The position numbers were made by a program, and so were the translations under genes. Positions 15,732-41,135 of a stretch of 41,135 bases of DNA are shown one piece after another (positions within the stretch are counted from its first letter, which is position 1; every line of letters starts with the position of its first letter). The stretch covers positions 1 through 41,135 of the forward strand of contig JACQUK010000012.1 in the NCBI GenBank assembly GCA_016210325.1, in the 5' to 3' direction. The notes beneath the pieces were generated by a model, which saw only the letters and a program-made list of their open reading frames with translations, made no database searches and had not been told where the DNA came from. This DNA is from Chloroflexota bacterium (GTDB lineage: Bacteria; Chloroflexota; Dehalococcoidia; Lucifugimonadales; HRBIN23).

Positions 15732-15746
15732 GAAGTGCTGAGAGGG

Positions 15747-21621: not shown

Positions 21622-22311
21622 TGCACTCTCCAACGTGATTTTCCCATCCTTCGCAACTTAGGGGTCCTGGTGGTGGCTAGGGCGCGCGAGGCGGTCCCTT
21701 GTTCATGGACCGCGTTCGCCAAGCGGGCCAGGCCTTGCTCTCGCGTCACCTCCCTTCTTTGCGTAGCCTGTGACGAAAGGTGTTGTTGATGCTACGCTAT
21801 TCGCAGGACAGGTCTACTCTTGGCAGCGGGTCTAATCGCCATACTCTGAGCTGGCTTTGCCTCTCTGCCTCCCTTTGGCGTTCTTAGAGCGGCTATGGTC
21901 TAACACATCCCTGGGTACCAGTCAAATGCCTGATTCCACCTTGTGGCCGTTGACCAGTAGGCGCCATTGCTATGCAAACTGACACCGGCGACGGAAAACG
22001 GCGGGTGTGATAGTGGAGTGGATGGAGCGAGGAAACAGCCTGAGGCTGACAGCAGTATCATACATGTCCTTGACAACCCGCGCAGGGAATGCCACAGTAT
22101 CGCCACCTTGGTTGCCAACTGCGTGGGGTGATGAGAGGCGCACCGACGAATGCTGCCTGTGCTGTGGCTGGCGGACTGACGTAACTCGGCTTCGCAAGAA
22201 AGCATCACTGACTGCCTGGATAGTACCCCCATCTGGTAAGGGGCCATCCGACTGCTGAGCAGACACGAGGACGTTGTCCAGAGTCCTCGTGCCTTTGCAA
22301 CAGGGAGGACC
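21622..22311. promoter_or_regulatory. Long divergent intergenic region without a gene
   Basis: A 690-base gap between the solute-binding gene and the oxidoreductase operon. Open frames exist on both strands (for example 22007-22258) but have no convincing ribosome binding site or domain. It must hold promoters for both directions. None could be fixed with confidence. A GGGAGG ribosome binding site lies just before 22312. Confidence 0.4.
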
Positions 22312-24306: not shown

Positions 24307-24374
24307 AAGGACGCCAGGACGTGGGGCCAGATACAGGGAGGGCTGGTCCGCCAACGCCGCTACGGAGGGAGGAT

Positions 24375-25733
24375 ATGGTCTCGAAACAGGCGATGACCCC
24401 AGGCACCCAGGGCGCTGCGGAGTTTGTTGTGAAGAGCAGGCTGGAGGACTTCCCCCTGGAGGTGGTATCCGCCGCCAAGCTCCACATCCTCGACTGCATC
24501 GGAGTTATGCTGGCTGGCCTCAAGACCTCGGCCGCACGCATTGCCGCGGAGTTCGCTCAGGAGGTAGGCGAGGCCAAGGAGGCGACTATCTTCGCCACCG
24601 GTGGGAAAGGTTCGGTGGTGGCCGCCACCTTCGCCAACTCCACCGCTGCATCAGTCCTGGACTACGAGGATGGCCACATCGGCGCCATCCCCCACCCAGC
24701 ATCGGTGACAGTGCCACCCGTGCTGGCCCTGGCTGAACGCGAGGGCAGCCCAGGGCGCAGCGTGCTGGAAGCCACCATCGTGGCCTACGAGGTGGGGTTA
24801 CGCTGTGGGCTGATGCTGTGCCGACGCGGGGGGCAGCACACCACGGGTGCCACGGGGGCCTTCACCGCCGCCGCGGGCGCAGCCAAGCTGCTGGGGCTGG
24901 ACAAGCAGCATGCCGCTGAGGCGCTGGGCGTCGCTGGTTCCACCTTCCCGGTCGCCTATGGCCACGTTTCACCCGGTTCAGGCGCCATGCTCAAGGAGAG
25001 TGTTGGCTGGGGCGCCACCACCGGTATGGCCTCGGCCCTCCAGGCGCAGCTCGGCTTCACCGGTGGCTACACCCCCCTGGACACCAGGACCGACGGCACC
25101 GACCCCTTCCCCTACTACCCATTCGATGGCAAGAGTTGGGAGCTCCTGAAGACCTACTTCAAGCACTACCCGGCCTGCCGCATCACCCATGCGCCGCTGG
25201 ACGCCTTCTTTTACCTGGTCAGGGAACACAAGCTGACCAAGGAGGGGATCACCCAGGTGCTGGTGGAAACGTCTGCCAACGGCAGCCGGTTGAACACGCG
25301 GCGGCCTATCAGCTTACAGCACGCCCAGTTCAGCATCCCCTTCGTCATCGGGTGCGCCATGGTCCACGGCAGGGTGACGCCCACGGAGATGGCGGAGGAA
25401 CGGCTGGACGACCCGGCCGTGCTGGAGCACGCCAAAAAAGTCGTGGTGCAGCAGAACTTCGATATGGACGCCCTGTGGCCGCGGCGCTACGCCGCCATCG
25501 TCCACATCACTGTCAGCGACGGTCGGACCTACACCATGCGCAAGGACTCGGCCCTGGGCGACTTCGATGAGCCCATGACCCCTGAGCAGGTCAGGGACAA
25601 GTTCCGCGCCAACGCCGAGCCGACTATTGGAAAGGAGCGCGCGGCAAAAACCATGTTGCTCGTTGACAGCCTGGAAAAGGTGCGGTCTGCCAAAGAGATT
25701 GTGGCAGAGCTCTGCGGCAGCCCCCGGAGGTAG
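24375..25733 (+). CDS. MmgE/PrpD family protein
   Basis: A 452-residue protein. The start at 24375 was chosen for its strong GGAGGGAGG ribosome binding site. The MmgE/PrpD core is recognisable: AAKLHILDCIGVMLAG near the N-terminus, DYEDGHIGAIPHPAS, a Gly/Ala-rich GATGAFTAAAGAAKLLGL segment, and the C-terminal lid with KHYPACRITHAPLDAF. The family includes 2-methylcitrate dehydratase, cis-aconitate decarboxylase and several iminodisuccinate or other acid epimerases and lyases, so the substrate cannot be set from sequence. Its place between the dienoyl-CoA reductase-like enzyme and DinB suggests a role in breaking down an unsaturated or branched carboxylic acid. Confidence 0.9.
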   Translation: MVSKQAMTPGTQGAAEFVVKSRLEDFPLEVVSAAKLHILDCIGVMLAGLKTSAARIAAEFAQEVGEAKEATIFATGGKGSVVAATFANSTAASVLDYEDGHIGAIPHPASVTVPPVLALAEREGSPGRSVLEATIVAYEVGLRCGLMLCRRGGQHTTGATGAFTAAAGAAKLLGLDKQHAAEALGVAGSTFPVAYGHVSPGSGAMLKESVGWGATTGMASALQAQLGFTGGYTPLDTRTDGTDPFPYYPFDGKSWELLKTYFKHYPACRITHAPLDAFFYLVREHKLTKEGITQVLVETSANGSRLNTRRPISLQHAQFSIPFVIGCAMVHGRVTPTEMAEERLDDPAVLEHAKKVVVQQNFDMDALWPRRYAAIVHITVSDGRTYTMRKDSALGDFDEPMTPEQVRDKFRANAEPTIGKERAAKTMLLVDSLEKVRSAKEIVAELCGSPRR

Positions 25734-28076: not shown

Positions 28077-28114
28077 AAGCGTGGGGTGACGGCTCATGCT
28101 GTCACTCCACGCTT
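28077..28114 (-). terminator. Terminator of the lipoprotein array (paralogous with 34292-34333)
   Basis: A 14-bp stem with one mismatch and a 10-base loop lies 27 bases after the stop of the last large lipoprotein gene. Its sequence and flanks (CAGAAAAGCG on one side, CGCTTGCCC on the other) match the hairpin after the first large paralogue, so gene and terminator were copied together. Confidence 0.75.
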
Positions 28115-28141
28115 GCCCATTGCTCTGGGGCAAGGAGGAGG

Positions 28142-29707
28142 CTATTCCACCACTTCTATTGCCAGCCGGAAGATAGGCAGCCTGTAGCCCAGGGCCAGGC
28201 CAGGGTGGTCCTGAAGGGCAGTAAGCTGGGGAATCTCGAAGTTCCAGAACTCGGCTGGGTGGGGGCCACTGTGGCGGTAGACCATGGGATAGAGGTCAAC
28301 CAGGTGGGTGCCGGGTGTCCCCGTGGCGACCAACTCGATGGTGATGTCCCCGGCGCTGGTGACGGAGCAGGCGTAACCAATGTAGGCGTTGTCATACGTG
28401 ACGGCAACGCCCTTGTCGAGCTCCGTCCAACCGCCGCCCTTGAGCTGCACAGTGAACTTCTCCCCGGCCTTCACGCGCAGGGGTGTGACACCCACCAGAT
28501 TCCGCTCTACGTAGAAGGGGACCGAGGCCAGCACCTTCTCGTCTTGGACTACCCATACCCACTGCCAGCCGCCCCGGTCGCTGGTGACCTGGAACGGCGC
28601 ACGCAGCGAACCATCTTGAGCTGTGGTGGCCGTCAGGACAAGCGCCTCAGGCAGGACCACTTGGGCTTCGCTCTTCGGGCCTATGGCCCAGAGTAGCTCT
28701 ACATTGGCGTTGGGAGCTAGACCGCCCGCCCGCAGAGTGGTAGTCGTCATGGTGGGGCCTGCGGAGGGCTCCAGCGACGCCGTGACGCCCGGCAGCGCTG
28801 CTGTCTTGGGCACAGCACCGCCGCTCAGCAAGGCGACGCGGCTGGGGTCGGGCCACTGGAGGCTGGGTGGCGGAGGCCCGGCGTCACGGGTGACAGTGAA
28901 CGTCGCCTGCAGGTCCATATTGGGGATGTAGGCTGTGCCCGACTGCTGGTTGTTGAGGAATGGGACGCCGGGGCTGGCGGCTGTGATTTGAATGGTGCGT
29001 TGGCCCACGGGGCCGGCGGCGCGAATCTGAGCGGTGGCGGTGCCCCTGGTGGTCACCGCAGATACGAAGCCGGTGTACTTGTTATCGTAGCGTACGGCCA
29101 TCGTGCTCTCGAATGGCCGCCACCCCAGGCCCGTGATGGTAATAGTGATAGGCGTGCCTACCGGGCCCTCACTGGGAGCAATGATGGCCCTACGGAAGAT
29201 GCGGAACCCTCCCTTGCCGACGTCCTGACCGTCCAGCACAAGGTAGATGTCATGTACCTCGCCGTAGTCCTCAGGGACGGTCAAGGAAACGACGACCCGG
29301 CCCTGGGCGTCCGGCACCACATGGCCCAGCGACATGCGCCGCTGGGTGTATAGACGCTCCAAGAAGAGGACGTCGCCTTCTGGTGTCGCCTGAGTAGTGT
29401 AGCTGCCGTCCCAGGTCACCCACTGTACGTCAAGCTCTTTTCCTGGCGGCAGCCCCTCGCCCTTGACCGTGAAAGGGTCACCTACGTAGCCCGTGACCGG
29501 CTCAACCCTCAACAACTTCAGTATGAAGGGCGTTGGCGTGGGTGACGATGTTGGTACTGGTGGTGGAGACGACAGCGGTTGCGGTGAAGCTGTTGGTTGC
29601 GGCGCCCCACCACACCCCGTCAGCACGAGGGCAAAGAGCACGAGGAGAACGACGCCACACGTCATCCCACTGAACCACCGCTGCGCAACCCCTGCCAGGT
29701 CTCTCAT
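28142..29707 (-). CDS. Large Ig-like repeat lipoprotein, paralogue 4
   Basis: A 521-residue lipoprotein. The start at 29707 has AGGAGGG upstream; a longer frame from 29800 runs into a gene remnant and is rejected. The lipobox is LVLTGC (C32), followed by a Ser/Pro/Thr linker to about 62. Four beta-sandwich units, probably IPT/TIG or Ig-like, follow at about 64-170, 172-275, 308-402 and 405-520. Landmarks are GEGLPPGK, TVPEDYGEVHDIYLVLDGQD, GPVGTPITITITGLGW, YDNKYTGFVSAVTTRGTA and YDNAYIGYAC (C447). It ends LPIFRLAIEVVE. It is one of four paralogues here. No known enzyme motif is present; an extracellular binding or scaffold role is inferred. Confidence 0.85.
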   Translation of the reverse strand: MRDLAGVAQRWFSGMTCGVVLLVLFALVLTGCGGAPQPTASPQPLSSPPPVPTSSPTPTPFILKLLRVEPVTGYVGDPFTVKGEGLPPGKELDVQWVTWDGSYTTQATPEGDVLFLERLYTQRRMSLGHVVPDAQGRVVVSLTVPEDYGEVHDIYLVLDGQDVGKGGFRIFRRAIIAPSEGPVGTPITITITGLGWRPFESTMAVRYDNKYTGFVSAVTTRGTATAQIRAAGPVGQRTIQITAASPGVPFLNNQQSGTAYIPNMDLQATFTVTRDAGPPPPSLQWPDPSRVALLSGGAVPKTAALPGVTASLEPSAGPTMTTTTLRAGGLAPNANVELLWAIGPKSEAQVVLPEALVLTATTAQDGSLRAPFQVTSDRGGWQWVWVVQDEKVLASVPFYVERNLVGVTPLRVKAGEKFTVQLKGGGWTELDKGVAVTYDNAYIGYACSVTSAGDITIELVATGTPGTHLVDLYPMVYRHSGPHPAEFWNFEIPQLTALQDHPGLALGYRLPIFRLAIEVVE

Positions 29708-29732
29708 GCAGCACGCCCTCCTGAAGTCCCTC

Positions 29733-29840
29733 GCTACGGGATGATCGGGGCGCGGCTGTCTATGCCACGCCCCAGGTCCACCAGTGCTGGTGGCCTCCAC
29801 TCGCCGCGGCGGCCCATCCTCGCCATCCTTGAAGTCAACT
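29733..29840 (-). pseudogene. 3' remnant of a third small lipoprotein gene
   Basis: On the minus strand the stretch ends RRGEWRPPALVDLGRGIDSR then APIIP and a stop at 29733-29735. This matches the end of the small lipoprotein at 31660-32337 (RQGEWKPPALVDPSRGIDSR then PQII). Just upstream a shifted frame reads VDFKDGE, again like the same protein, so there is also a frameshift. Only about 35 codons survive, between large paralogues 3 and 4. It records a former large-plus-small gene pair. Confidence 0.75.
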
Positions 29841-29852
29841 CCGTGACGAGTC

Positions 29853-31421
29853 CTACTGGACTACCTCAATGGCCAAGCGGAAGATGGGCAGCTCGTACCC
29901 CAGCGCCTGGCCTGGGTGGTCCTGAAGCGCAGTGAGAAATGGCAACTGGAAGCTCCAGTCTTCAGGCGGGTAGTTGCCCTTTGCCCGAGAGACCGTCGGG
30001 TACAGGTCAATAAGGTGAGTCCCCGGGCCTCCCGTAGCCACCAGGTCAACGGTGATATCGCCGCTGCAACTAAGGCCGCAAGCGTAGCCAACGTAGGCGT
30101 TATCGTACGTGATGGCTACCGCGTTATCCAAATCGGTCCAGCCAACCCCCTTGAGCTGCACCGTAAAGGTCTGCCCCGCCTTCACACGCCTGGGGCTGAC
30201 ATCCACCAGGCTCTGCTGCACGAAGAAGGGGGCCTCAACCAACACCTTGTCCCCACTCACCGCCTTCACCACATGCCAACCACCCAGGGTATCGGGCACC
30301 TGGATGGTAGCCCTGAGAGAGCCATCAGCATCCGTGGTGGCCTTCCTGAGCGGGGTCTCCGTCTCGCTACGGCCGTTGGAGCCGACACGCTTGCTCCTGG
30401 GCGTTACCCAGACCAGCTCCACCTCATCGTTCGGAGGCAGGCCCCTGGCCCACAGCGTAGTCTGGGAGAGGACGGGGCCATAGGGGGCCTCAAGCCCTGC
30501 CTTGGAGCCTTGGGCCGCAGGCACACCTCCCACCATGACCTTGGGGATGGCGTCGCTGAGCGTGGACACCCGGCTGCCAGATGGCCAGTCCAAGGTGTTC
30601 GGCGGGGCACCGGCGTCTTTCGTCACCTCAAAGGTCCAGCTATGGTCCATAGCGATATGGCTTGCCGGCGACTGTTGAAGACCAAGGGATGGGGTGCCGG
30701 AGATGGCGCCAGCTAGCTGGATGGTGTGCAGGCCATCGGGCCCGGCGGCGCGGACCCGAACAACGGCGGTGCCCCTGGTCGTGACCGCTGTAACGAGGCC
30801 CGTGTACTTGTTGTCGTAGAGTACCGCCATCGTGTTTTCAGAAGGCTCCCAGCCCATGCCCGTCACCGTGATGGTGATGGGGGTACCTATCGGGCCCTCG
30901 GTGGGCCACATGGTCGCACTGCGGAGGACCCTGAACTCCCCGATGGCTACGTCCTGGCCGCCCACCACGGCGTAGATATCATGTGCCTCCCCGTAGTCTT
31001 CTGGGGTAGCGAAGGTGGCCGTCACCCGGCCCTGGGCATCGGCCACTGCTTTACCGAGCGGGACTCGCTTCTCTACAAAGCTGCGCTCGAGGAATCTGAT
31101 GGTCTTCCGACTGACCTCAGTCGCGTAGGTGCCTTTGTGAGTCCCCCATTCGAACTGGACCGTTTTCCCTGGCGGCAACCCCTCGCCCGTGACGGTAAGT
31201 GGCTCACGTATGTAACCCTGGACAGGCTCCACCTTCAGCAGCTTCAAGGCAACGGGCGCCGGGTCCTGCACTGCGCCCTGCTGGGTGGGGGTAGTCGCAG
31301 GGGATTGAGCTTGCGGCCCCTTCTGCGGCTCCCCGCTGCATGCCACAAGCAGCCCCAGCAGACCCAGGGCCAAGGGCAGGACCCACAACCGATAAGACGG
31401 ACTCCTAGCGGAGTAATGCAT
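29853..31421 (-). CDS. Large Ig-like repeat lipoprotein, paralogue 3
   Basis: A 522-residue lipoprotein starting MHYSARSP at 31421, chosen because the signal peptide follows directly (LGLLGLLVAC, C28); the frame is open to 31544. It has the same four-unit layout as paralogue 4, with GEGLPPGK, ATPEDYGEAHDIYAVVGGQD, GPIGTPITITVTGMGW, YDNKYTGLVTAVTTRGTA, VSPRRVKAGQTFTVQLKG and YDNAYVGYACGLSC. That last segment has one more Cys than the others. It ends LPIFRLAIEVVQ. A remnant of a small lipoprotein gene lies directly downstream, so this gene probably once formed a pair like paralogue 2 with the small protein at 31660. Confidence 0.85.
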   Translation of the reverse strand: MHYSARSPSYRLWVLPLALGLLGLLVACSGEPQKGPQAQSPATTPTQQGAVQDPAPVALKLLKVEPVQGYIREPLTVTGEGLPPGKTVQFEWGTHKGTYATEVSRKTIRFLERSFVEKRVPLGKAVADAQGRVTATFATPEDYGEAHDIYAVVGGQDVAIGEFRVLRSATMWPTEGPIGTPITITVTGMGWEPSENTMAVLYDNKYTGLVTAVTTRGTAVVRVRAAGPDGLHTIQLAGAISGTPSLGLQQSPASHIAMDHSWTFEVTKDAGAPPNTLDWPSGSRVSTLSDAIPKVMVGGVPAAQGSKAGLEAPYGPVLSQTTLWARGLPPNDEVELVWVTPRSKRVGSNGRSETETPLRKATTDADGSLRATIQVPDTLGGWHVVKAVSGDKVLVEAPFFVQQSLVDVSPRRVKAGQTFTVQLKGVGWTDLDNAVAITYDNAYVGYACGLSCSGDITVDLVATGGPGTHLIDLYPTVSRAKGNYPPEDWSFQLPFLTALQDHPGQALGYELPIFRLAIEVVQ

Positions 31422-31659
31422 CTGAGCCACCGCTGCTTTCCTTTTCCAAGACCTCGTAACTCTACTCTCGGAAGTTGGTTGAAGAAGGACGGCGTCGCTC
31501 ACCCGGTCCTCTGGGGAGGTCTGCTTCGCCGCCTCTGCATGCACTGTGAGCGCTACATAACAAGCCGGGGAGCACGAGCCTCCGTCTTCCTCGCGTCAGT
31601 CGTAGCACAGAGACCTCGCGCTCCCCGCACCGTGCCTGCCAAGGCCCTATGGGGCCTTC
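31422..31659. other. Gap with hairpins between small lipoprotein B and paralogue 3
   Basis: A 238-base gap. On the minus strand, soon after the stop of the small gene, AAGGCCC-CATA-GGGCCTT (near 31642-31659) can form a short hairpin. Further on, GGGGAGCGCGAG pairs with CTCGTGCTCCCC across a long loop. These may terminate the upstream pair. No gene was seen. Confidence 0.4.
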
Positions 31660-32337
31660 CTACGCATCGTTTATCGAACCAATAATCTGAGGGCGGCTGT
31701 CAATGCCGCGGCTCGGGTCCACAAGGGCTGGCGGCTTCCACTCGCCCTGGCGGCCGTCTTTGAGGGCGATGAGGATGGTGTAATCGAGGGTGCCTACGGG
31801 GTAGTCCAGCGGGACGTCCCAGCACACTTCCCACGTCCAGGGGGCGCCGGGGACACGGCCATCACCGCGTTGCTTGAATATGGCCTTTTCTTCCACCAGG
31901 AAGGGCAGCTTGAGGACGACGCTGTCGGCTTCTTCGCTGGTCACCTCTTTCCCGGTGGCCACGTCGAGGACCACAAACCGCCAGACCATGCGCTCGCCTC
32001 GCTTGAACACGCCGCTGGGCGCGCAACCACGAGGGGCCATGAACCCGTAGATGCTCGGCCGGTCGGCCGTGAGGGTCTCCACGTAGCAGAAGAACTTGGC
32101 CTCTTGGCTGGCTGGCGCAGCGGCAACAGGAGCGGGCTCAGGGGTGGATGCCGGCGTGGCCTCCTCCTCTGCCGTGGGACCCCCTTGCTCTGCCTGGGAC
32201 ACTGCAGCCCCTGTGCACCCCATGACTGCCACCATCATCAGGCCAGCGATAGCCGCCAGCAAGCCCAAGGCCCAGGCCCCTTGTTGGTGCTTCGAGTCTG
32301 CACCTGCCTTGGATGGCTGCCTGCCAGTCATCTGCAT
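31660..32337 (-). CDS. Small lipoprotein B, partner of the large Ig-like lipoproteins
   Basis: A 225-residue lipoprotein with an unusually polar N-terminus, then a hydrophobic signal ending AVMGC (C41). A short Ala/Pro/Glu linker follows, then one beta-rich domain from about 85. It shares with the protein at 36074-36886 the segments FYVETLT (here FCYVETLT), a Cys in the RGCAPSGVFKRG region, RMVWRFVVLDVATGK, APWTWEVCWDVPLDYPVGTL and DYTI. It ends with RGIDSRPQI. It starts 27 bases after the stop of large paralogue 2, so the two form a transcriptional pair. No known family was recognised. A stable complex with its large partner is a reasonable guess. Confidence 0.8.
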   Translation of the reverse strand: MQMTGRQPSKAGADSKHQQGAWALGLLAAIAGLMMVAVMGCTGAAVSQAEQGGPTAEEEATPASTPEPAPVAAAPASQEAKFFCYVETLTADRPSIYGFMAPRGCAPSGVFKRGERMVWRFVVLDVATGKEVTSEEADSVVLKLPFLVEEKAIFKQRGDGRVPGAPWTWEVCWDVPLDYPVGTLDYTILIALKDGRQGEWKPPALVDPSRGIDSRPQIIGSINDA

Positions 32338-32364
32338 CGCTTTCCTCTTCCTTTCTGGGGACTC

Positions 32365-33966
32365 CTACTCGACCTCGACGGCGACCCGGAAGATGGGCAA
32401 GTGGTAGCCGATGGACAGGCCCGGGTGGTCCTGGAGGGCCGTGAGCTGCGGGACCTGGAAGTTGAAGACCTGCTTGTTGGGATGTCCCTCGTAGACCATC
32501 GGGTAGATATCTATGAGGTGCGTCCCCTTGCCACCTGTCGCGGGGATGTAGATGTTGACAGTGCCGTTGCTGGAGAAGCCGCAGGCGTAGCCGATGTAGC
32601 TGTTGTCATAAGTGACGGCTATGCCATTGTCCAACTCGGTCCAGCCAATGCCCTTCAACTGGACGGTGATCCGCTCGCCTGCTTTGACCTTCCTCGGTGT
32701 GACCTGCACAAGGCTGGGCTCCATGTAGAAGGGGGTCTCGCTCAGCAGCTTCTCGCCTGCCATGACCCTTACGGTATGCCAGCCACCCAGGTCATCGGGG
32801 ACCTCGAAGGCCGCCTCTAGCGAGCCGTTGCCCCCCGTCTTGGCCTTCCCCAGCGGCAGCACATCCAGGACCCATCCGCTGCCACTGGTGCGGTTGCCGC
32901 GGGCCGTGACGAAGACCAGGTCCACGTCCGTGTTGGCCGGAAGACCGCTGCTGCGCACCGTAGCCTTGGAGAAGACGGGTCCAGATGCAGGCTGCACCAC
33001 CGAAGGAATAAGGGATGAGCGATTGGGGCTGCCTGCCGTGGTCGTTGGGGTGTCAAGGGTCACCGTGGCCACGCGGCTATCATCGGGCCACTGAATGGCC
33101 ACCGGCGGCGCGCCCCTGTCTTCGGTGACGGTATACACAAACTGGTCTGGAAGGTGGCTGAAGATGTACCAGTTCCGGGCATTGTCATGGGAGTTTAGGT
33201 ACGGTGTGGCCTGGCTGGCGGAATAGACCTGGATGATGTGGTCGCCTGGCGGTCCCGCCGCCCGGATCTGCGCGGTGCCGGTCCCCTTGGTGGTGACCGC
33301 GGAGATGAAACCCGTGTAGCGATTGTCCCACGTGACGGACATGGTGCTCTGGTAGTAGGATGTGGCCATGCCCTTGACGGTGATGGTGATGAGGTCCCCC
33401 ACGGCGCCCTTGGTGGACGAGACCTCCACACTCCGCTTGATGCGGAACCCCCCCTTGGCCGCGTCTTTGCCGTCTACCACGGCGTAGATATCGTGGGCCT
33501 CGCCATGGTCCTCAGGTGCAGCAAAGCTGACACTCACCCGTCCCTGGGCATCCGACACTGCACGGCCCAGGGGGACTCGCTTCTTGGAGTACGTGCGCTC
33601 GATGTACTGCACGTTGTCCGGGATAACCTGCGTCACGTAGGCGGCTTCCCACCCGTCCCACTGGAACTCAACATTCTTGCCCGGAGGCAGCCCCTCGGCG
33701 GCAATGGCGAACTTGTCCCCCACAAAGCCCTGCACCGGGTCCACCTTGAGGGGTGTCAACGGCACAGGGGTTGGCGTGGGGGCGGGTGCAGTAGTGGACG
33801 TCGGTGCCGGCGGGACAGAGGTGGGCGTGTCCGCCACCTTAGCTGGGGTCGTAGGGGTCGCGGTAGACTGGCCCTCACACGCCGTTATCAATCCCAACAA
33901 GCCTATGGCAGCCAGGCAAAGCCCCAGCAACGACCATTTCCAGGCAGAATGCATTGACCGTCTCAT
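32365..33966 (-). CDS. Large Ig-like repeat lipoprotein, paralogue 2
   Basis: A 533-residue lipoprotein. The start at 33966 was chosen for the AAAGGAG upstream and the signal peptide ending LLGLITAC (C30). A Thr/Pro/Ala linker follows. The four-unit plan is kept: GEGLPPGKNVEFQWDGW is the equivalent opening (AAEGLPPGK), then AAPEDHGEAHDIYAVVDGKD, GAVGDLITITVKGM, WDNRYTGFISAVTTKGTG, VTPRKVKAGERITVQLKG and YDNSYIGYACGFSSNG. The C-terminus is shortened to LPIFRVAVEVE. The middle (NSHDNARNWYIFSHLPDQF) differs most from its relatives. It forms a pair with small lipoprotein B downstream. Confidence 0.85.
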   Translation of the reverse strand: MRRSMHSAWKWSLLGLCLAAIGLLGLITACEGQSTATPTTPAKVADTPTSVPPAPTSTTAPAPTPTPVPLTPLKVDPVQGFVGDKFAIAAEGLPPGKNVEFQWDGWEAAYVTQVIPDNVQYIERTYSKKRVPLGRAVSDAQGRVSVSFAAPEDHGEAHDIYAVVDGKDAAKGGFRIKRSVEVSSTKGAVGDLITITVKGMATSYYQSTMSVTWDNRYTGFISAVTTKGTGTAQIRAAGPPGDHIIQVYSASQATPYLNSHDNARNWYIFSHLPDQFVYTVTEDRGAPPVAIQWPDDSRVATVTLDTPTTTAGSPNRSSLIPSVVQPASGPVFSKATVRSSGLPANTDVDLVFVTARGNRTSGSGWVLDVLPLGKAKTGGNGSLEAAFEVPDDLGGWHTVRVMAGEKLLSETPFYMEPSLVQVTPRKVKAGERITVQLKGIGWTELDNGIAVTYDNSYIGYACGFSSNGTVNIYIPATGGKGTHLIDIYPMVYEGHPNKQVFNFQVPQLTALQDHPGLSIGYHLPIFRVAVEVE

Positions 33967-34201
33967 GAGTTCACTCCTTTGTGTTCGCCCACAAGGCCCC
34001 CCATCCTCGGTAGGTGTACCTGCCAGGGCTTGTTGGTGATAACTCTCCACTTCGCACTAAGTATGGACCAGCATGTTTCATCCCACATGCGAGGGGATAC
34101 GTGTTTGGGAGTAGGAGACAACTCCTTGTGGGAGTAAGTAGAAACACGTGGTAAGAGCGTGGTCCTGCACTACCCTTCCGCTGGCGCAACATGCCGTTCA
34201 G

Positions 34202-34243
34202 GTCTATGAGGGCCCGGGCCACGTGCTCGAGGCCCTCATAGAC
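34202..34243 (-). terminator. 13-bp-arm hairpin between paralogues 1 and 2
   Basis: Arms GTCTATGAGGGCC (34202-34214) and its complement (34231-34243) are perfect, with a 16-base loop. It lies beyond the stronger hairpin at 34292 and could be a second terminator or a regulatory structure in the leader of paralogue 2. Confidence 0.4.
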
Positions 34244-34291
34244 CCACAGTCCCAGGCAACAACACTACTGAATGATGTAGTTCGGACAGAA

Positions 34292-34333
34292 AAGCGTTGG
34301 GCGCGACGGCCTGTGCTGTCGCGCCCAACGCTT
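34292..34333 (-). terminator. Terminator after large paralogue 1
   Basis: A perfect 16-bp stem with a 10-base loop, 25 bases after the paralogue 1 stop on the minus strand, followed there by TTCTGT. It is homologous to the hairpin at 28077-28114, including the flanking GCTCT and GCTTGCCC. Confidence 0.75.
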
Positions 34334-34358
34334 GCCCGCTGCTCTGCGGCTGAGAGAC

Positions 34359-35945
34359 CTACTCCACTACCTCTATGGCGAGTCTGAACACAGGTAAGCT
34401 ATACCCCAGGCCCAAACCAGGGTGGTCCTCCAGCGCGTTAAGCTGGGGCATCTGGAACGGCCAACGCCCCGTGGCCTTGCCCTGGAAGGTGGTGGGGTAG
34501 ATGTCGATCAGGTGGGTGCCGGGAGCGCCCACGGCGGTGAGTTGCAGGGTGATATCGCCATTGCTGTTGAAGCCGCAGGCGTACCCCATGTAGGCATTGT
34601 CGTAGGTTACCGCAACGGTGTTGTCCAACTCCGTCCAGCCAATGCCCTTGAGCTGAACGCTGAACTTCTCCCCCGCTTTTACCCGCGTGGGTGTGACGCC
34701 CACCAGGCTGGGCTGAACATAGAAGGGAAGCTCGGCCATACGGGTCCCGTCCTGGACCAGCGCAACGGTGTGCCACCCCCCAAGGCCATCCGGCACCTTG
34801 ATGTCGGCGCGGAGTGTGCCGTCACCGTTGGGTATGGCAGTCCCCAACGGAGTTTCGATCAGTTCCCAGCCGGCGGCCGTCACGCGGTTGCCCTTGGCGG
34901 TCAGCCAGACCATCCCGACCTCCGCCCCCGGGCGGAGTCCCCGAGCGGTCACAGTCAAAGGAGAGAGGATAGGCCCGCGCAAGGACTCCAACGAAGCCGA
35001 GACCCCTACGCGGGACGTAGTCTTGGCAGCAGTGGTCCGTGGCGCGTCATCAGCCAGTTGCGCCACAAGACGGGCATCCGGCAGCTCCACTTTCGAAGGC
35101 GGTGCTCCACCGTCCCCTGTCACCTTGAAGGTGAACCGAAAAGCCCCGTCCTTCGGGAAGAAAGCCGCATACGGGGACTGCTGGTTGTTCAGGTACCCTG
35201 CGCCATGGTTGCCAGCGCCGCTGAGCTCGACGGTGTGGAGACCTAGCGAGCCAACAGCGCGGATATAGGCTTTGGCCACTCCGCGGGTGGTTACGCCAGC
35301 GAGGGAGCCTGTGTACTGGTTGTCGTAGCGAACCGCGAGGGCGTGCTCGACTGGCGGCCTTCCCAGGCCGGTCACGGTGATAGTGATTGGGGTCCCCACA
35401 GGGCCCTCCGCGGGGCTGACCGAGATTGACCGACGGACCTGGAAGCCCCCCTTGGCAATATCCTGTCCATCCATCACCACGTAGATGCTGTGCGCGCCAC
35501 CATAGTCCGTGGGCGCCGTCAGGTCAACCTTGAGTCCTCCCTGGGCATCAGTTGTTGCCTTACCTATGGGGAGACGCGCATCGTCATAACGCAGTCCACC
35601 GAATTCGATGGTCTCTGCCATGACATTGGTGTCGAAGGACCCATTCCAGGTGGTCCAGACTAGCTCTGCCGTCTTATTGGCGGGCAGCCCCTCGCCAGTG
35701 ATGGTAAAGCTGGTGCCTACAAAGCCCCCCTCTGGCTGAGTCTTGAGCAGCTTCAGGGGCACCTTGGTTGGCTCATTCGCCTGCGCAGGCTGTGACGTCG
35801 GCGTGGCAGCGGACTGGGGCTGTGTCGGGGCCGGTGGCGGCTGTTGCCCTTCCCCACCACACGCCGCTGCAAGAGTCACCAGCGCAATAGCCAATGAAAC
35901 CAGCCCCAACGAAACCGACCGTACGCAAACTCGGGAGATGCTCAT
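34359..35945 (-). CDS. Large Ig-like repeat lipoprotein, paralogue 1
   Basis: A 528-residue lipoprotein starting at 35945 (AGGAGG six bases upstream, MSISRVCVRS). The signal peptide ends ALVTLAAAC (C29) and a Pro/Gln/Ala linker follows. The four-unit plan is present with GEGLPANK, TAPTDYGGAHSIYVVMDGQD, GPVGTPITITVTGLG, YDNQYTGSLAGVTTRGVA, the YLNNQQSPYAAFF segment, VTPTRVKAGEKFSVQLKG and YDNAYMGYACGFNSNGD. It ends LPVFRLAIEVVE. A hairpin separates it from small lipoprotein A upstream and another from paralogue 2 downstream, so it is probably transcribed alone. Confidence 0.85.
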   Translation of the reverse strand: MSISRVCVRSVSLGLVSLAIALVTLAAACGGEGQQPPPAPTQPQSAATPTSQPAQANEPTKVPLKLLKTQPEGGFVGTSFTITGEGLPANKTAELVWTTWNGSFDTNVMAETIEFGGLRYDDARLPIGKATTDAQGGLKVDLTAPTDYGGAHSIYVVMDGQDIAKGGFQVRRSISVSPAEGPVGTPITITVTGLGRPPVEHALAVRYDNQYTGSLAGVTTRGVAKAYIRAVGSLGLHTVELSGAGNHGAGYLNNQQSPYAAFFPKDGAFRFTFKVTGDGGAPPSKVELPDARLVAQLADDAPRTTAAKTTSRVGVSASLESLRGPILSPLTVTARGLRPGAEVGMVWLTAKGNRVTAAGWELIETPLGTAIPNGDGTLRADIKVPDGLGGWHTVALVQDGTRMAELPFYVQPSLVGVTPTRVKAGEKFSVQLKGIGWTELDNTVAVTYDNAYMGYACGFNSNGDITLQLTAVGAPGTHLIDIYPTTFQGKATGRWPFQMPQLNALEDHPGLGLGYSLPVFRLAIEVVE

Positions 35946-36005
35946 CCGCCGCCTCCTTGTCCCTTTCTGAAACCCCATCGTTGCTCCATATCAGGCCTAT
36001 CAGAC

Positions 36006-36046
36006 CTTTACGATGGGCGGGGCTGGCGGCCCCGCCCATCGTAAAG
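36006..36046 (-). terminator. Terminator after small lipoprotein A
   Basis: A perfect 18-bp inverted repeat (arms 36006-36023 and 36029-36046, 5-base loop), 27 bases after the small lipoprotein A stop on the minus strand. Its stem differs in sequence from the 28077 and 34292 hairpins. Confidence 0.7.
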
Positions 36047-36073
36047 CTTCCCCGCAAAGCACACCCGGCTTTG

Positions 36074-36886
36074 TTACTCCAGAATCTGTACCCGCTGGTC
36101 TATACCAGGGGGAGGGTTCGTCAAGTCCACGAGTTTGGGATCAAAGGCGCCTTTCCGACTACCATCTTTGCTCTGGACCTGAATGGTGTAGTCCAGTGGG
36201 CCCAGCGGGTAGTCCATCGGGGGGTCCCAGGCTGCGACCCACGTCCAGGGGCCGGTTCCGGCCTTGCGGGCGAACCGCGCCGGGACCTCCTGCCCGTTTT
36301 CCAGCACCAGTTTGACAGTGGGGCTGTCCAGGCTGGTGAGCCGCTTCCCTGTGGAGGTGTCGAATACCTCGAACCTCCACACAATGTGAGCCCCTCGACG
36401 GAACTGGGTGTTGGGCACGCAGGAGGGGTACTGGGCGAACCCTGAGACCTGATGCCCGGTGAGCGTCTCAACGTAGAAGGTATACGGGAAGACGGTGTTG
36501 ACTGTGACATCATCGGGGGGGACGGGGGTTGGTGCTACGAATCCAGGAGGACGAGGTGTTGCTGTAGGCCTTGGCGTAGGGGTTGGCTGCTCCTTGGTGT
36601 AAACCAGCGGCGTTATCCCTTGTAGGTTCGCAGCACTCTTTTTGAGGTCTTCGATCTCCTTGTTCTTGGCGTCAAGCTGCTGCTGGAGCGCAGCGGTCCC
36701 CTGCCCGGCAGCTTGCGCGGCCTGGAGGTCCTGCCGCAGCTTGGCGACCTCCTGCTCCTTGGCGGCGACTTGTGCGTTGGCTGCATCGAGGTCCTTCTGC
36801 GACACGCCCCCGCATGCGACCCATAGTCCAAGTGCGACCACCAGGACCCCCAACAGCGCCCCCAACCTGATGACCGTACGTACCAT
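36074..36886 (-). CDS. Small lipoprotein A with coiled coil, paralogue of small lipoprotein B
   Basis: A 270-residue lipoprotein. The start at 36886 has AAAGGAGG four bases upstream; the frame is open to 37006 but the added residues are unlike a signal peptide. The anchor is C25 (LGLWVAC). Residues about 29-85 form a heptad-rich coiled coil (AKEQEVAKLRQDLQAAQ). A Thr/Pro linker follows at about 95-120. The C-terminal domain matches small lipoprotein B: FYVETLTGHQ, a Cys in YPSCVPNTQFRRGAH, IVWRFEVFDTSTGK, GPWTWVAAWDPPMDYPLGPL and DYTIQVQSKDGS. The coiled coil, absent in B, could trimerise or space the domain away from the membrane. It lies directly after the cytochrome c operon on the same strand. 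Confidence 0.82.
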   Translation of the reverse strand: MVRTVIRLGALLGVLVVALGLWVACGGVSQKDLDAANAQVAAKEQEVAKLRQDLQAAQAAGQGTAALQQQLDAKNKEIEDLKKSAANLQGITPLVYTKEQPTPTPRPTATPRPPGFVAPTPVPPDDVTVNTVFPYTFYVETLTGHQVSGFAQYPSCVPNTQFRRGAHIVWRFEVFDTSTGKRLTSLDSPTVKLVLENGQEVPARFARKAGTGPWTWVAAWDPPMDYPLGPLDYTIQVQSKDGSRKGAFDPKLVDLTNPPPGIDQRVQILE

Positions 36887-37088: not shown

Positions 37089-37838
37089 CTACGACGCGTT
37101 GACCGGGTCAGCATCGTGAAGCACCGCCATCATGTAGTAGGCGATGGACCTGGCATCTTGTAGGTTCAGATTTGTCGTCCGGACCATTGCTGCTACCAGG
37201 GATGTTGCATCGTAATCGCCGGGAAAGGCGGCTCGGATATCCTCTCTACCAGGCTGCGCGTGGCAGGCGCCGCAGGACCTGCGGATGGCGGCCTTGCCTT
37301 GCAGAAGAGCGCTGGGTGGCACGGAAGGGTCCCAGGACAGGTTCTGTATCGCCGCTATCTCCGCCGGGCTGGGCTTGACTACCGTGAGCCCCTGGAGGTA
37401 CGTAGCCAGCTTCTCCAGGTCAGCCTTGTTGAGCTGGGCTTCGGTGTAGGTGGGCATGCCGCCGGGGCCATCCCGCACCATGTGCTCCAACGTGTCCAGC
37501 TTGGCGCCGGCCACCGATGGCCCCACCGCCCCACCCCGGGCGTCCACTCCGTGACAGGTGCCACAGCCCCGTCCCAGGTAGATGGCGCGGCCGGGGTCCA
37601 TGGGGGTCGCGGCACGCAGGGACACGCTGGGCATGGCGAAGGCTACCTTGGCCGTCGCGTGCTCCCCCGTCGCCTTGCCGCCCAGGGTAGCCACCTCCGT
37701 GCGAGCGTAGCCAGCCTTGATGCCACCCCAGAGGTTGCCGTGGGTATCAGGACCGCGGAGGACAATGACCCCAATCAGCAGCGTGGCCAGGCCCAACACC
37801 GCCGCAATGCCCAACCGTGGCACCAGGAACCTATCCAT
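37089..37838 (-). CDS. Membrane-anchored di-haem cytochrome c
   Basis: A 249-residue protein. The start at 37838 has GGGAGG six bases upstream and overlaps the previous gene's stop by eight bases. An uncleaved N-terminal anchor spans about 8-28. Two class I haem sites are visible: C92-x2-C95-H96 (GCGTCHG) with candidate sixth ligand M128 in GGMPTYTEAQ, and C189-x2-C192-H193 (SCGACHA), whose Met ligand is less clear. Each sits in a small cytochrome c domain. It probably passes electrons between the NrfD/ferredoxin-like complex and an outside acceptor or donor. It is the last gene of the tight respiratory operon. Confidence 0.9.
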   Translation of the reverse strand: MDRFLVPRLGIAAVLGLATLLIGVIVLRGPDTHGNLWGGIKAGYARTEVATLGGKATGEHATAKVAFAMPSVSLRAATPMDPGRAIYLGRGCGTCHGVDARGGAVGPSVAGAKLDTLEHMVRDGPGGMPTYTEAQLNKADLEKLATYLQGLTVVKPSPAEIAAIQNLSWDPSVPPSALLQGKAAIRRSCGACHAQPGREDIRAAFPGDYDATSLVAAMVRTTNLNLQDARSIAYYMMAVLHDADPVNAS

Positions 37839-38403
37839 GCTGGCCTCCCGCTCTGGAGGGGGCCTTGGCCCCCTCCCTGGCAATAAGGGTGAGGAGCACC
37901 ATCACCGCCAAATAGGTCCCCCAGACTCCACCCAGGAGTCCCACCAGGAGCCAGACGCTGACGCCGGGCACCCGCACCCCCGCGCTGGACTGATAGAGCT
38001 GCGCCGAGCCCTGCACCGCCATCTGCGCCGAGGCCTGGGCAGCGGAGTAGCGACTGTCCCCGCTGAAGGAGGCGTTGAGCACCACCGACTCCTCGGTCCG
38101 CGCCTCGTAACGGAAGGTGGCCTCCCCCCGGGCGTTGGTGGCCACCTTCCCCAACTGCACAGCGCCCCCCGTGCTCAGGAACTGCGCCGGACTCCACAGG
38201 ATGACCGGGGCGCCGACGATGGGCGTACCGCTGGCGTCGCGCAGCACCGCCGTGACCGTCACCTGCTCCCCCAACGTTGCCTCCTGGGGGGCCTGGAGTT
38301 GCAAGTCTGCTGGGTCGGCGGCCAGCGCCGCCCTCCCGGTGGCCAGCAGGAGCAGCAAGGGCAGCAGGACGAGCAGTGCCCGCCTGACGTTATGCATCCT
38401 CAT
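37831..38403 (-). CDS. Membrane-anchored Ig-like protein in respiratory operon
   Basis: A 190-residue protein. A signal peptide (about 1-28, cleavage near AALAA) is followed by one Ig-like beta-sandwich (about 33-130) with TVTAVLRDASGTPIVGAPVILW and GEATFRYEA, typical of Big_1/Big_3-type domains. A membrane span lies near 148-172 and a short cytoplasmic tail follows. The ATG overlaps the NrfD stop (ATGA). It has no cofactor motif, so a structural role is likely, perhaps holding the cytochrome or an outside partner next to NrfD. Its Ig-like fold parallels that of the lipoproteins further downstream. Confidence 0.8.
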   Translation of the reverse strand: MRMHNVRRALLVLLPLLLLLATGRAALAADPADLQLQAPQEATLGEQVTVTAVLRDASGTPIVGAPVILWSPAQFLSTGGAVQLGKVATNARGEATFRYEARTEESVVLNASFSGDSRYSAAQASAQMAVQGSAQLYQSSAGVRVPGVSVWLLVGLLGGVWGTYLAVMVLLTLIAREGAKAPSRAGGQHG

Positions 38404-39818
38404 CGTGTCCCTCCTGGGCCGTGGTCTGCGCCCTCAGCGGGCGGCTCGGACGTTGGCTCCATCCGCAGCGAGCCGGTGGCCGGGAGGCTCCGCCCCAGGG
38501 CGGGCGCCTCCTTCACCTCGTGTTCCTCATACTGCTCGGCCACCTCCCAGATGGAGATGACCGGGAACAGCTTGGAGAAGACCGCGATGACCAGGCCAAA
38601 CATGGCGAAGGCCCCCGCCATGATGGACCACTCCACCCAGGTCGGCACGTACCACGAGGGGTCATAGGGCATCAGCGGCACCCGCAGGCCAGCCACCACG
38701 ATGATGAACCGCTCCATCCACATGCCCACCAGCACCAGACCGGCAGCCACCAGCACGCCGGTGAAGGTGCGGGTCTTGGGGAACAGGATGATGAGGCCGG
38801 GCAGCACCATGCCGCCGATGGTGTACAGCCAGAAGAAGGGCGCGTACTCCCGGACCATGAGCTGCACGAAGTGGAAGGACGTTTCCCCCGCCATCTTGTA
38901 CCCGGTGACCACGTACTCGGAGACGTTGAAGTACATCATGATGAGGGTGAAGCCGCCCAGCATGTACCCCAGGTTGATGAAGTGCTTATGGGTGATGTAG
39001 GCCTCCAGGTGGAAGGCGCGCCGCAGGACCGCCATCACCAGGATGATGGCAGCAATGCCCGAGAAGATGGCCCCCGCCACGAAGTAGGCCCCAAAGACCG
39101 TGGAGTTCCACGGCTCCCGCAACGTCATGGCGAAGATCCAGGACACCACGGTGTGGACCGAGACCGCCACCGGGATGATGAGCACCATCATGGAGGCCAG
39201 CGCAATGCTCAGCAGCTTCTTCTGCCGTGCCGTCCCCTGCCACCCCACCGAGGCCACCCGGAAGAACCACCGCTTCCACCCCGGCACCTCGTTCCCCAGG
39301 CGGTCCCGACAGATGGCCAGGTCCGGGATCAGGGGCAGGTAGAGGTAGATGATGCTCCCCGTGAGGTACGTGGAGATGGAAAGCACGTCCCACAGGATGG
39401 GCGACTGCCAACGCCCAAACAGGACCAGGTTCGGGATGCGGTCTGGCCGCCCCAGGTCCAGCATCGGCATCAGCCCGCCCACCGAGAGGGCCACCACGGT
39501 GATGAACTCCGCCATCCGAGTGACCGGCGTCCGCCACTGGGCCTTCACCACCCGCAGGATGGCCGAGATGAGGGTGCCCGCGTGGCTGATGCCGATGAAG
39601 AAGACGAACAGGATGATGTAGAAGCCCCACAGAATGCGGTCCCGCATGCCGGTGACAATCAGGCCATCCCGAAGCTGGGTGCTGTAGGCAAAGAGGGCCC
39701 ACAGCACCACCAGCACCAGGCCACCTACCAGCAGGCGGTACCCTTTACCAGTGCGCACCAGTGGGCCCAGCACCACCCGCTCCAACTGCTCCCGGGGTCC
39801 GTTCTTTACCTTGTCCAT
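38400..39818 (-). CDS. nrfD: NrfD/PsrC-family polysulfide reductase-like membrane subunit
   Basis: A 472-residue integral membrane protein with about ten hydrophobic spans, the usual NrfD-type fold that handles quinone. Landmarks are ISHAGTLISAILRVVKAQWRTPVTR in the early part, LMPMLDLGRPDR after the third span and SVHTVVSWIFAM. NrfD subunits pair with four-cluster iron-sulfur proteins in Psr, Ttr, Dms, Nrf and alternative complex III type enzymes. Its start overlaps the iron-sulfur gene by 13 bases, so the two are translated together. No molybdopterin catalytic subunit lies within the window; it may lie to the right, or the module may work with the cytochrome c alone. Confidence 0.9.
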   Translation of the reverse strand: MDKVKNGPREQLERVVLGPLVRTGKGYRLLVGGLVLVVLWALFAYSTQLRDGLIVTGMRDRILWGFYIILFVFFIGISHAGTLISAILRVVKAQWRTPVTRMAEFITVVALSVGGLMPMLDLGRPDRIPNLVLFGRWQSPILWDVLSISTYLTGSIIYLYLPLIPDLAICRDRLGNEVPGWKRWFFRVASVGWQGTARQKKLLSIALASMMVLIIPVAVSVHTVVSWIFAMTLREPWNSTVFGAYFVAGAIFSGIAAIILVMAVLRRAFHLEAYITHKHFINLGYMLGGFTLIMMYFNVSEYVVTGYKMAGETSFHFVQLMVREYAPFFWLYTIGGMVLPGLIILFPKTRTFTGVLVAAGLVLVGMWMERFIIVVAGLRVPLMPYDPSWYVPTWVEWSIMAGAFAMFGLVIAVFSKLFPVISIWEVAEQYEEHEVKEAPALGRSLPATGSLRMEPTSEPPAEGADHGPGGTR

Positions 39819-40746: not shown

Positions 40747-41135
40747 CTACGCGCTAAGTGGGCCGATGGGAGCCACCGCGGCAAGCCTCGATACCACCAA
40801 CGGCAGCCCATCCCATAGCGGTGGCCCCTTCTCCAGGCAGGCCAGGGCCCCCAGGCGAAGGGCCTCCTCTCGCACCTCTTGCTCCAGGGTGGAGCTGATC
40901 AGCACTACCTGGGTGCAGGGGGACTCCCCCTTCAGGCGCCGCAACGCCTCCAGCCCTCCCATGATGGGCATGTGCAGGTCCATCACCACCAGGTCCGGGC
41001 GGCGCGCACGGGCAAACTCCAACGCCTCAGCCCCGTTGGCCCCTTCACCAACAACCTCGCAGTCGCCTATGCCCCCCAGCAACAGCTTCACCGCCTCCCG
41101 CATCCGCGCTGAGTCATCTACCACCAGCACTTTCA
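40747..41135 (-). CDS. Stand-alone response regulator receiver protein (start just beyond the window)
   Basis: About 129 residues, a single CheY-like receiver domain without an output domain. The window cuts the ATG by one base: the last bases read as TG AAA GTG CTG on the minus strand, so the protein begins MKVLVVDDS. The acidic pocket is D7/D8, the phosphorylated residue is D53 (VVMDLHMPIMGG), the switch residue is S81 or S82 (VLISST), and the Lys is K103. It is immediately upstream of and apparently cotranscribed with the iron-sulfur/NrfD operon. How a receiver without DNA-binding domain would control it is unclear; it may act by protein contact. Confidence 0.9.
   Translation of the reverse strand, partial: KVLVVDDSARMREAVKLLLGGIGDCEVVGEGANGAEALEFARARRPDLVVMDLHMPIMGGLEALRRLKGESPCTQVVLISSTLEQEVREEALRLGALACLEKGPPLWDGLPLVVSRLAAVAPIGPLSA

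Follow-up and report, generated by a model that had tools for sequence, protein, structure and literature searches.

We describe here two families of lipoproteins, called small and LARGE, that are encoded as an array on contig JACQUK010000012.1 of a Chloroflexota bacterium (assembly GCA_016210325.1). The window that was analysed is the entire contig, 41135 bases. To judge by the relatives of the source genome, its class is probably Dehalococcoidia. Small and LARGE constitute an undescribed lipoprotein pair of some Chloroflexota and Actinomycetota. Among open papers we found no description of either the pair or the operon beside it, in which an NrfD membrane subunit is combined with an immunoglobulin-like (Ig) protein and a cytochrome.

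The operon and the lipoprotein array

Read 5' to 3' along the minus strand, the genes follow one another as response regulator, iron-sulfur (FeS) subunit, NrfD, Ig protein of the Big type, diheme cytochrome c, smA, L1, L2, smB, L3, a small-gene remnant and L4, where smA and smB are small and L1 to L4 are LARGE proteins. Up to the cytochrome the genes are separated by short gaps or overlap; beyond it the gaps measure 202 bases (cytochrome-smA), 95 (smA-L1), 308 (L1-L2), 27 (L2-smB), 115 (smB-L3) and 52 (L3-L4). The features are as follows:

40747..41130, minus strand: single-domain response regulator (receiver only); CheY/NarL-type receiver matches below curated cut-offs; start uncertain, at the contig end
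39806..40735, minus strand: FeS subunit with 4Fe-4S clusters, 308 aa, DsrO/NrfC-like (DsrO 176.9 bits, cut-off 200); weak match to a twin-arginine translocation signal
38400..39818, minus strand: NrfD-family membrane subunit; PF03916 120 bits; 6lod_C (ActC) E 1e-60 over residues 13-441
37831..38403, minus strand: Ig-like (Big) protein with signal peptide and C-terminal membrane helix; Big_3_5 and Big_1 above cut-off
37089..37883, minus strand: diheme c-type cytochrome with N-terminal anchor, its start overlapping the Ig gene; Cytochrome_CBB3 E 2e-15, two CxxCH
36074..36886, minus strand: smA, small lipoprotein with lipid anchor, coiled coil, Thr/Pro linker and one Ig-like domain (sequence and model)
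36003..36073, minus strand: intercistronic hairpin in the smA-L1 gap; -43.2 kcal/mol, z -5.1
34359..35978, minus strand: L1, LARGE lipoprotein with four Ig-like domains; orthologues in L109 and L110 beside the same operon
34270..34352, minus strand: terminator-like hairpin 3' of L1; -43.6 kcal/mol, z -6.0, then a T-rich tail TTTTCTGT
32365..34050, minus strand: L2, LARGE lipoprotein of a separate lineage in the tree (with L122, L126, L127)
31660..32337, minus strand: smB, small lipoprotein (comparison with smA)
29853..31544, minus strand: L3, LARGE lipoprotein (comparison with L1, tree)
29740..29859, minus strand: remnant of a third small gene, about 40 C-terminal codons with a changed frame; tblastn against smB E 1e-10, repeat match
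28142..29800, minus strand: L4, LARGE lipoprotein of the lineage of the first-copy LARGE of L109 and of L127; true start probably near 29702

Three-digit L numbers denote loci in the genomes compared and are not to be confused with the proteins L1 to L4. The initial annotation had recognized four large and two small paralogous lipoproteins on one strand, and the open reading frames (ORFs), lipoboxes and sequence identities agree with it: every ORF of the array was found on the minus strand at the position it had reported. It was also right that a third small gene is dead, since the similarity covers 40 C-terminal residues between L3 and L4 and changes frame. Large and small genes had further been described as alternating. 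They do share one strand, but their order is small-LARGE-LARGE-small-LARGE-(remnant)-LARGE; L2 therefore follows L1 directly, without a small partner immediately upstream, and tblastn detected no small-gene remnant in the L1-L2 gap.

How is the array likely to be transcribed? Because a terminator-like hairpin follows L1, two transcription units are likely: smA-L1 most likely ends the NrfD operon and L2-smB-L3-L4 would form a second unit. The earlier placement of the array directly after the cytochrome c/NrfD operon thus holds for its position, but the hairpin leaves only smA-L1 likely within the operon. Hairpins occur in 15/19 Chloroflexota small-LARGE gaps versus 16/68 other same-strand gaps (Fisher p 2e-5), where gaps of 30-200 bases were considered and a hairpin required z < -2 relative to dinucleotide-shuffled sequence; the loci are not statistically independent of one another, and automatic ORF calls supplied the control gaps. 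The small-LARGE gap hairpins are GC-rich, without sequence conservation. At the level of a guess, the intercistronic hairpin might set the small:LARGE ratio. No RNA families were detected in the window.

Sequence and fold of the small and LARGE proteins

All four LARGE proteins of the window show the common plan that had been read from their sequences, consisting of a lipobox, a Thr/Pro linker, a YDN-Y-GYAC motif and a shared C-terminus, and the other three are 44, 49 and 48% identical to L1. The four beta units proposed earlier correspond to four Ig-like domains in an AlphaFold2 model of LARGE built on 45 aligned sequences (predicted local distance difference test score (pLDDT) 89.8, predicted TM-score (pTM) 0.87), and profile comparison identifies domains 1-2 and 3-4 as a tandem (ABAB) duplication (probability 99.9%, E 1e-33). 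The small proteins smA and smB are 41% identical, and the AlphaFold2 model of small joins a coiled coil through a linker to a single Ig-like domain (pLDDT 85.5, pTM 0.56). Two residues of LARGE, C429 in domain 4 and H450, are invariant (45/45), C429 being the sole Cys of the folded part in 33/45 sequences; C156 of small is present in 37/38, with no second Cys in the folded part of 33/38. This arrangement would allow an interprotein disulfide between the invariant Cys of LARGE and the Cys of small. A lipobox is found in all six lipoproteins of the window, and across the families a Cys occupies the lipobox column in 28/45 LARGE and 31/31 small sequences; the Actinomycetota LARGE proteins lack it. 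Elsewhere in the window genome (locus L051, G000:C91 6051-7559) a protein of 502 residues has an N-terminal lipoprotein coiled coil like that of smA (51% over 45 residues) and a different C-terminal part.

Nothing close to a characterised family emerged from searches of Pfam, NCBIfam, the PDB and Foldseek. Neither protein is named by a Pfam or NCBIfam model, save for a borderline likeness of one LARGE domain to TIG (PF01833, cut-off 20.9 bits), with one domain each scoring 21.2 bits in L3, 19.7 in L1 and 16.7 in L4, and none in L2. In the PDB sequence search neither protein had a significant relative; LARGE gave a weak match to 1jju (E 0.017), and the matches of small fall in its coiled coil. 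Foldseek with the LARGE model retrieved only generic Ig-type folds with TM-scores of at most about 0.2, among them one S-layer protein and many adhesion-type Ig rods, and no specific structural homologue; with the small model it likewise retrieved generic Ig-type folds only (query-normalised TM-scores < 0.3). The CxxCH motif is absent from every LARGE and small member. A redox activity of the two proteins themselves was considered and rejected on these grounds, there being no CxxCH and no match to an enzyme or cofactor family in Pfam or NCBIfam.

In a maximum-likelihood tree L1 groups with its L109 and L110 orthologues, which lie beside the same operon (100/100), L2 with proteins of L122, L126 and L127 (100/100), and L3 and L4 fall in a third group with the L109 first copy, L127 and L129 (97/96). 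In the window, as in L122, L126 and L127, an L2-type protein stands ahead of a different LARGE. We considered and rejected recent tandem duplication as the origin of L1-L4, because they belong to no fewer than three old lineages. The unit is one small-LARGE pair, and arrays are built from old, diverged LARGE lineages. Because the array joins old lineages, it argues for LARGE proteins that may have distinct roles or hetero-assemble, and not for gene dosage.

The pair and its neighbours in other genomes

Two separate searches, one with LARGE and one with small, returned the identical 18/400 Chloroflexota genomes, so that the pairing proposed from a single contig does recur. Among 59 relatives, real LARGE matches were obtained in 4 genomes and small in the same 4, the remaining LARGE matches being short, with E near 1e-5, and mostly confined to the linker region. 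In Actinomycetota, LARGE is present in 4/246 genomes and a clear small domain in 3 of those 4; two further small matches are coiled-coil matches only. In 42 adjacent pairs, drawn from contigs of Chloroflexota, Actinomycetota and metagenome-assembled genomes (MAGs) labelled Deltaproteobacteria (Myxococcota in the tree labels), the small gene immediately precedes LARGE and has the same orientation. The distance matrices of the two proteins correlate (r 0.71 overall, 0.43 within Chloroflexota; 0/5000 permutations as high), a correlation to which shared ancestry contributes. In multi-pair loci the true partner fits better than a swapped one in most cases but not in all, several pairs fitting the swapped partner equally. 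Downstream of one very divergent pair (L045/L144, G022:C30 6119-10252; 33-36% identity) lie genes for a mono-heme cytochrome and for a thioredoxin-like lipoprotein, and this locus has no NrfD.

What surrounds the pair? The recurring gene order is (histidine kinase-response regulator)-FeS-NrfD-Ig-(cytochrome/cupredoxin)-small-LARGE. By comparison of coordinates, 15/18 pair-bearing Chloroflexota genomes have a pair no more than about 3 kb from a member of one NrfD subfamily; an NrfD was counted when it reached at least 459 bits with the NrfD profile, or when it was a fragment of NrfD at a contig end (G186, G226). In the remaining 3/18, the pair of G194 sits at a contig start and is not judgeable, and G096 and G102 have no NrfD near the pair. 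Genes were taken from automatic ORF calls in which antisense ORFs mask some members (for example Ig or FeS in L110, L124 and L128), and these neighbourhood counts are thus lower bounds. Since each of ten genomes tested, of 1.9-5.6 Mb, has only one to eight NrfD matches, chance adjacency of pair and NrfD would be rare, as judged from the match counts. The pair-linked subfamily scores 460-800 bits with the NrfD profile versus about 340-390 for genuine ActC-like proteins of other Chloroflexota, the label 'genuine' resting on tandem NrfD genes in two of them (L156, L173). The response regulator gene occupies the same position in L043 and L046 (57% and 68% identity), and kinase-regulator genes adjoin many pairs, in NrfD-type, cytochrome b-type and pair-only loci alike.

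The Ig protein carries, in most loci, an extra N-terminal domain that is marked by a CxxxCxxH motif and a conserved His and is weakly similar to the cupredoxin domains of nitrite reductases and nitrosocyanin (in L044, Pfam Cupredoxin_1 E 0.0024). The CxxxCxxH loop resembles the CuA loop, one residue short and with Leu replacing the CuA Met, and is a putative metal site. This combination of cupredoxin-like domain, Big domain and membrane helix is found in the NrfD operons of L130 (6133-7080), L044, L046, L048, L111, L114, L117, L121, L123 and L125. The window copy lacks the cupredoxin-like domain and its operon has the diheme cytochrome in its place, which suggests that the two may be alternative carriers; L130 holds both.

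NrfD is not the only redox partner in the neighbourhood of the pair. Pairs also stand beside genes for cytochrome b, Rieske protein, a GltD-like flavoprotein and c-type cytochromes (L112, L115, L126). In a groundwater Chloroflexota MAG (L044, G022:C5 1755-14881, minus strand) an NrfD-cupredoxin/Ig-small-LARGE module is followed by a complete operon of the nitrite oxidoreductase (NXR) type, with NxrA (1729 bits to Kuenenia 7b04_B), an NxrB-like FeS protein, a NarJ-like chaperone and an EB_dh heme subunit. When 21 pair-bearing genomes were searched for NxrA, four gave a full-length match and a fifth a fragment; none was found in the window genome, which is 82% complete. NXR was rejected as a general partner of the pair, being missing from the window genome and most carriers and present in relatives without the pair. 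A heme-copper oxidase is encoded in 21/21 pair-bearing Chloroflexota genomes, a count that covers carriers only. In Actinomycetota (L131-L142) a small secreted protein beside the pair has conserved His, Cys and Met and is cupredoxin-like by eye, and small is duplicated or two-domain in several of these loci.

The plus strand of the window contains further genes, classified by eye. A secreted protein (537-1379) ends in a plastocyanin-like copper site (YVCQFHSGM), and a protein of 837 residues (15735-18248) consists of two CaiB/BaiF-type CoA-transferase units fused head to tail. An OYE/BaiCD-like flavoenzyme followed by an MmgE/PrpD-like gene (22312-25733) forms a catabolic-looking cluster, with which a peptide-type ATP-binding cassette binding protein (window 19621-21633) is found.

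A proposed role for the pair

Several known systems resemble parts of the window operon. Its NrfD is closest to ActC of alternative complex III (6lod_C, 8k9e_C, 6f0k_C and 6btm_C, E 1e-53 to 1e-60), its FeS subunit resembles the C-terminal part of ActB, and a c-type cytochrome is present. In contrast to that complex, the genes visible up to the contig end, just upstream of the response regulator, include no pentaheme ActA, no molybdopterin-like part of ActB and no second NrfD (ActF), and they do include Ig proteins and the lipoprotein pair. An exported FeS protein adjoins NrfD as in the DsrO-DsrP and NrfC-NrfD couples of DsrMKJOP and NrfABCD-type modules, and further relatives of the FeS subunit among solved structures are ArrB-like 6cz7_B and PsrB 2vpw_B; however, the window proteins fall under the curated DsrO and DsrP cut-offs (176.9/200 and 115/350 bits) and the partner enzyme of those systems is absent from the operon. 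The likeness to NXR operons lies in L044, where the pair is placed between the NrfD module and the full NxrA set, and ends with the distribution of NXR described above. As for the lipoproteins, one domain each of L1, L3 and L4 is borderline IPT/TIG-like, but no Pfam or NCBIfam model covers the ABAB four-domain plan, the YDN-Y-GYAC motif or the obligate small partner. The beta domains of the quinohemoprotein amine dehydrogenase alpha subunit (1jju) are weakly similar to LARGE domains 3-4 (PF09099 under cut-off); LARGE has no heme domains, the similarity is below significance, and what the two have in common is no more than the Ig-like fold class.

Based on these observations, we propose that small and LARGE are accessory extracytoplasmic lipoproteins of quinol dehydrogenases of the NrfD type, and sometimes of the bc type, serving as a scaffold or docking part, a reading to which we assign a probability of roughly 0.45. 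In this model the ActC-like NrfD subunit would oxidise membrane quinol, and the exported FeS subunit and the diheme cytochrome c, or elsewhere the Ig-anchored cupredoxin, would pass electrons outwards. A small-LARGE heterodimer would be lipid-anchored beside the complex and raised off the membrane on a coiled coil and an Ig-like rod, as a tower that either holds the complex together or presents an electron carrier to its partner. The lack of CxxCH and of an enzyme domain, together with models that show Ig-like domains and a coiled coil, fits a structural part. The genes, their predicted folds, the pairing, the correlated distances and the recurring linkage to quinol-oxidising complexes are observed, and gene context backs the tie to respiration; the mechanism is inferred, namely that small binds LARGE, that both bind the complex, that electrons flow outwards and that the pair is a scaffold. 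A bolder form of the model, which we regard as rather improbable, would make the pair an exchangeable docking tower of several unrelated quinol-oxidising complexes (ActC-like NrfD, cytochrome b/Rieske and one NXR-linked), a disulfide-linked Ig-rod heterodimer in which each LARGE lineage selects its carrier or terminal enzyme.

The link with respiration drawn by the initial annotation from position and strand is strengthened by the 15/18 genomes with NrfD nearby, but it does not hold as a tie to NrfD alone, and a number of observations weigh against an accessory role in NrfD complexes. L2, L3 and L4 appear to lie in a unit separate from the NrfD operon. The pairs of G096 and G102 (2/18 genomes) have no neighbouring NrfD, and the Actinomycetota carriers L119, L131, L134, L138 and L139 have no NrfD of the pair-linked kind, their pair adjoining instead an MMPL transporter and a small cupredoxin-like gene. 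Conversely, the NrfD operon also occurs without the pair, which is therefore not needed for the core function of the operon. In such operons the position after the cytochrome is held by double cupredoxin-like lipoproteins (L207, L209) or by cytochrome c'-like helical lipoproteins (L208, L210); in L182 an EB_dh-like lipoprotein, recognized by eye, follows the cytochrome. Pair-less operons and NrfD-less pairs thus both exist, alongside the 15/18 genomes in which a pair and NrfD lie together.

Could the pair instead act at the cell surface? It might be an adhesin or S-layer-like element attaching to mineral, polymer or other cells, merely co-regulated with respiratory operons by the adjoining histidine kinase and response regulator. 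Lipid-anchored rods of Ig-like domains, the S-layer and adhesion-type Foldseek matches, the arrays of diverged LARGE proteins and the retention of the pair without NrfD in Actinomycetota all suit this explanation, which we consider unlikely: the linkage to quinol-oxidising complexes recurs in many genera and with two unrelated complex types, the Ig matches are generic at their low TM-scores, and the invariant positions are concentrated in the fold, with no variable binding face as far as can be read from the sequences. A function in assembling, or delivering metal to, the exported electron carrier, be it cupredoxin or cytochrome c, would account for the conservation of C429, H450 and C156 (which would then be ligands or redox thiols), for the cupredoxin-like domains that accompany the pair in many loci, for the small cupredoxin-like gene of Actinomycetota and for the cytochrome and thioredoxin-like gene behind the divergent L144/L045 pair. 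It appears quite improbable, as the Chloroflexota proteins contain no known copper chaperone or CXXC thiol motif, four large Ig domains exceed the needs of a chaperone and the window operon has a cytochrome and no cupredoxin. That the pair is an extracytoplasmic receptor through which the histidine kinase, encoded beside many pairs in NrfD-type, cytochrome b-type and pair-only loci, would sense a ligand or redox conditions is very improbable, because the same regulators flank pair-less NrfD operons (L207, L209, L214) and so go with the operon, not with the pair.

What would an accessory role of small and LARGE in these complexes imply? The abstract and the consulted passages of a review of NrfD complexes (PMC8076601) do not list subunits of either type, and if the pair is indeed part of the complexes, it would represent a cofactor-free type of subunit absent from those reviewed there. 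NrfD complexes are a main microbial route by which quinones are coupled to a wide range of electron donors and acceptors, and partner subunits newly found reveal how they adapt; here, two undescribed families recur next to one NrfD subfamily and next to two further redox systems, in little-known bacteria of the subsurface and soil.

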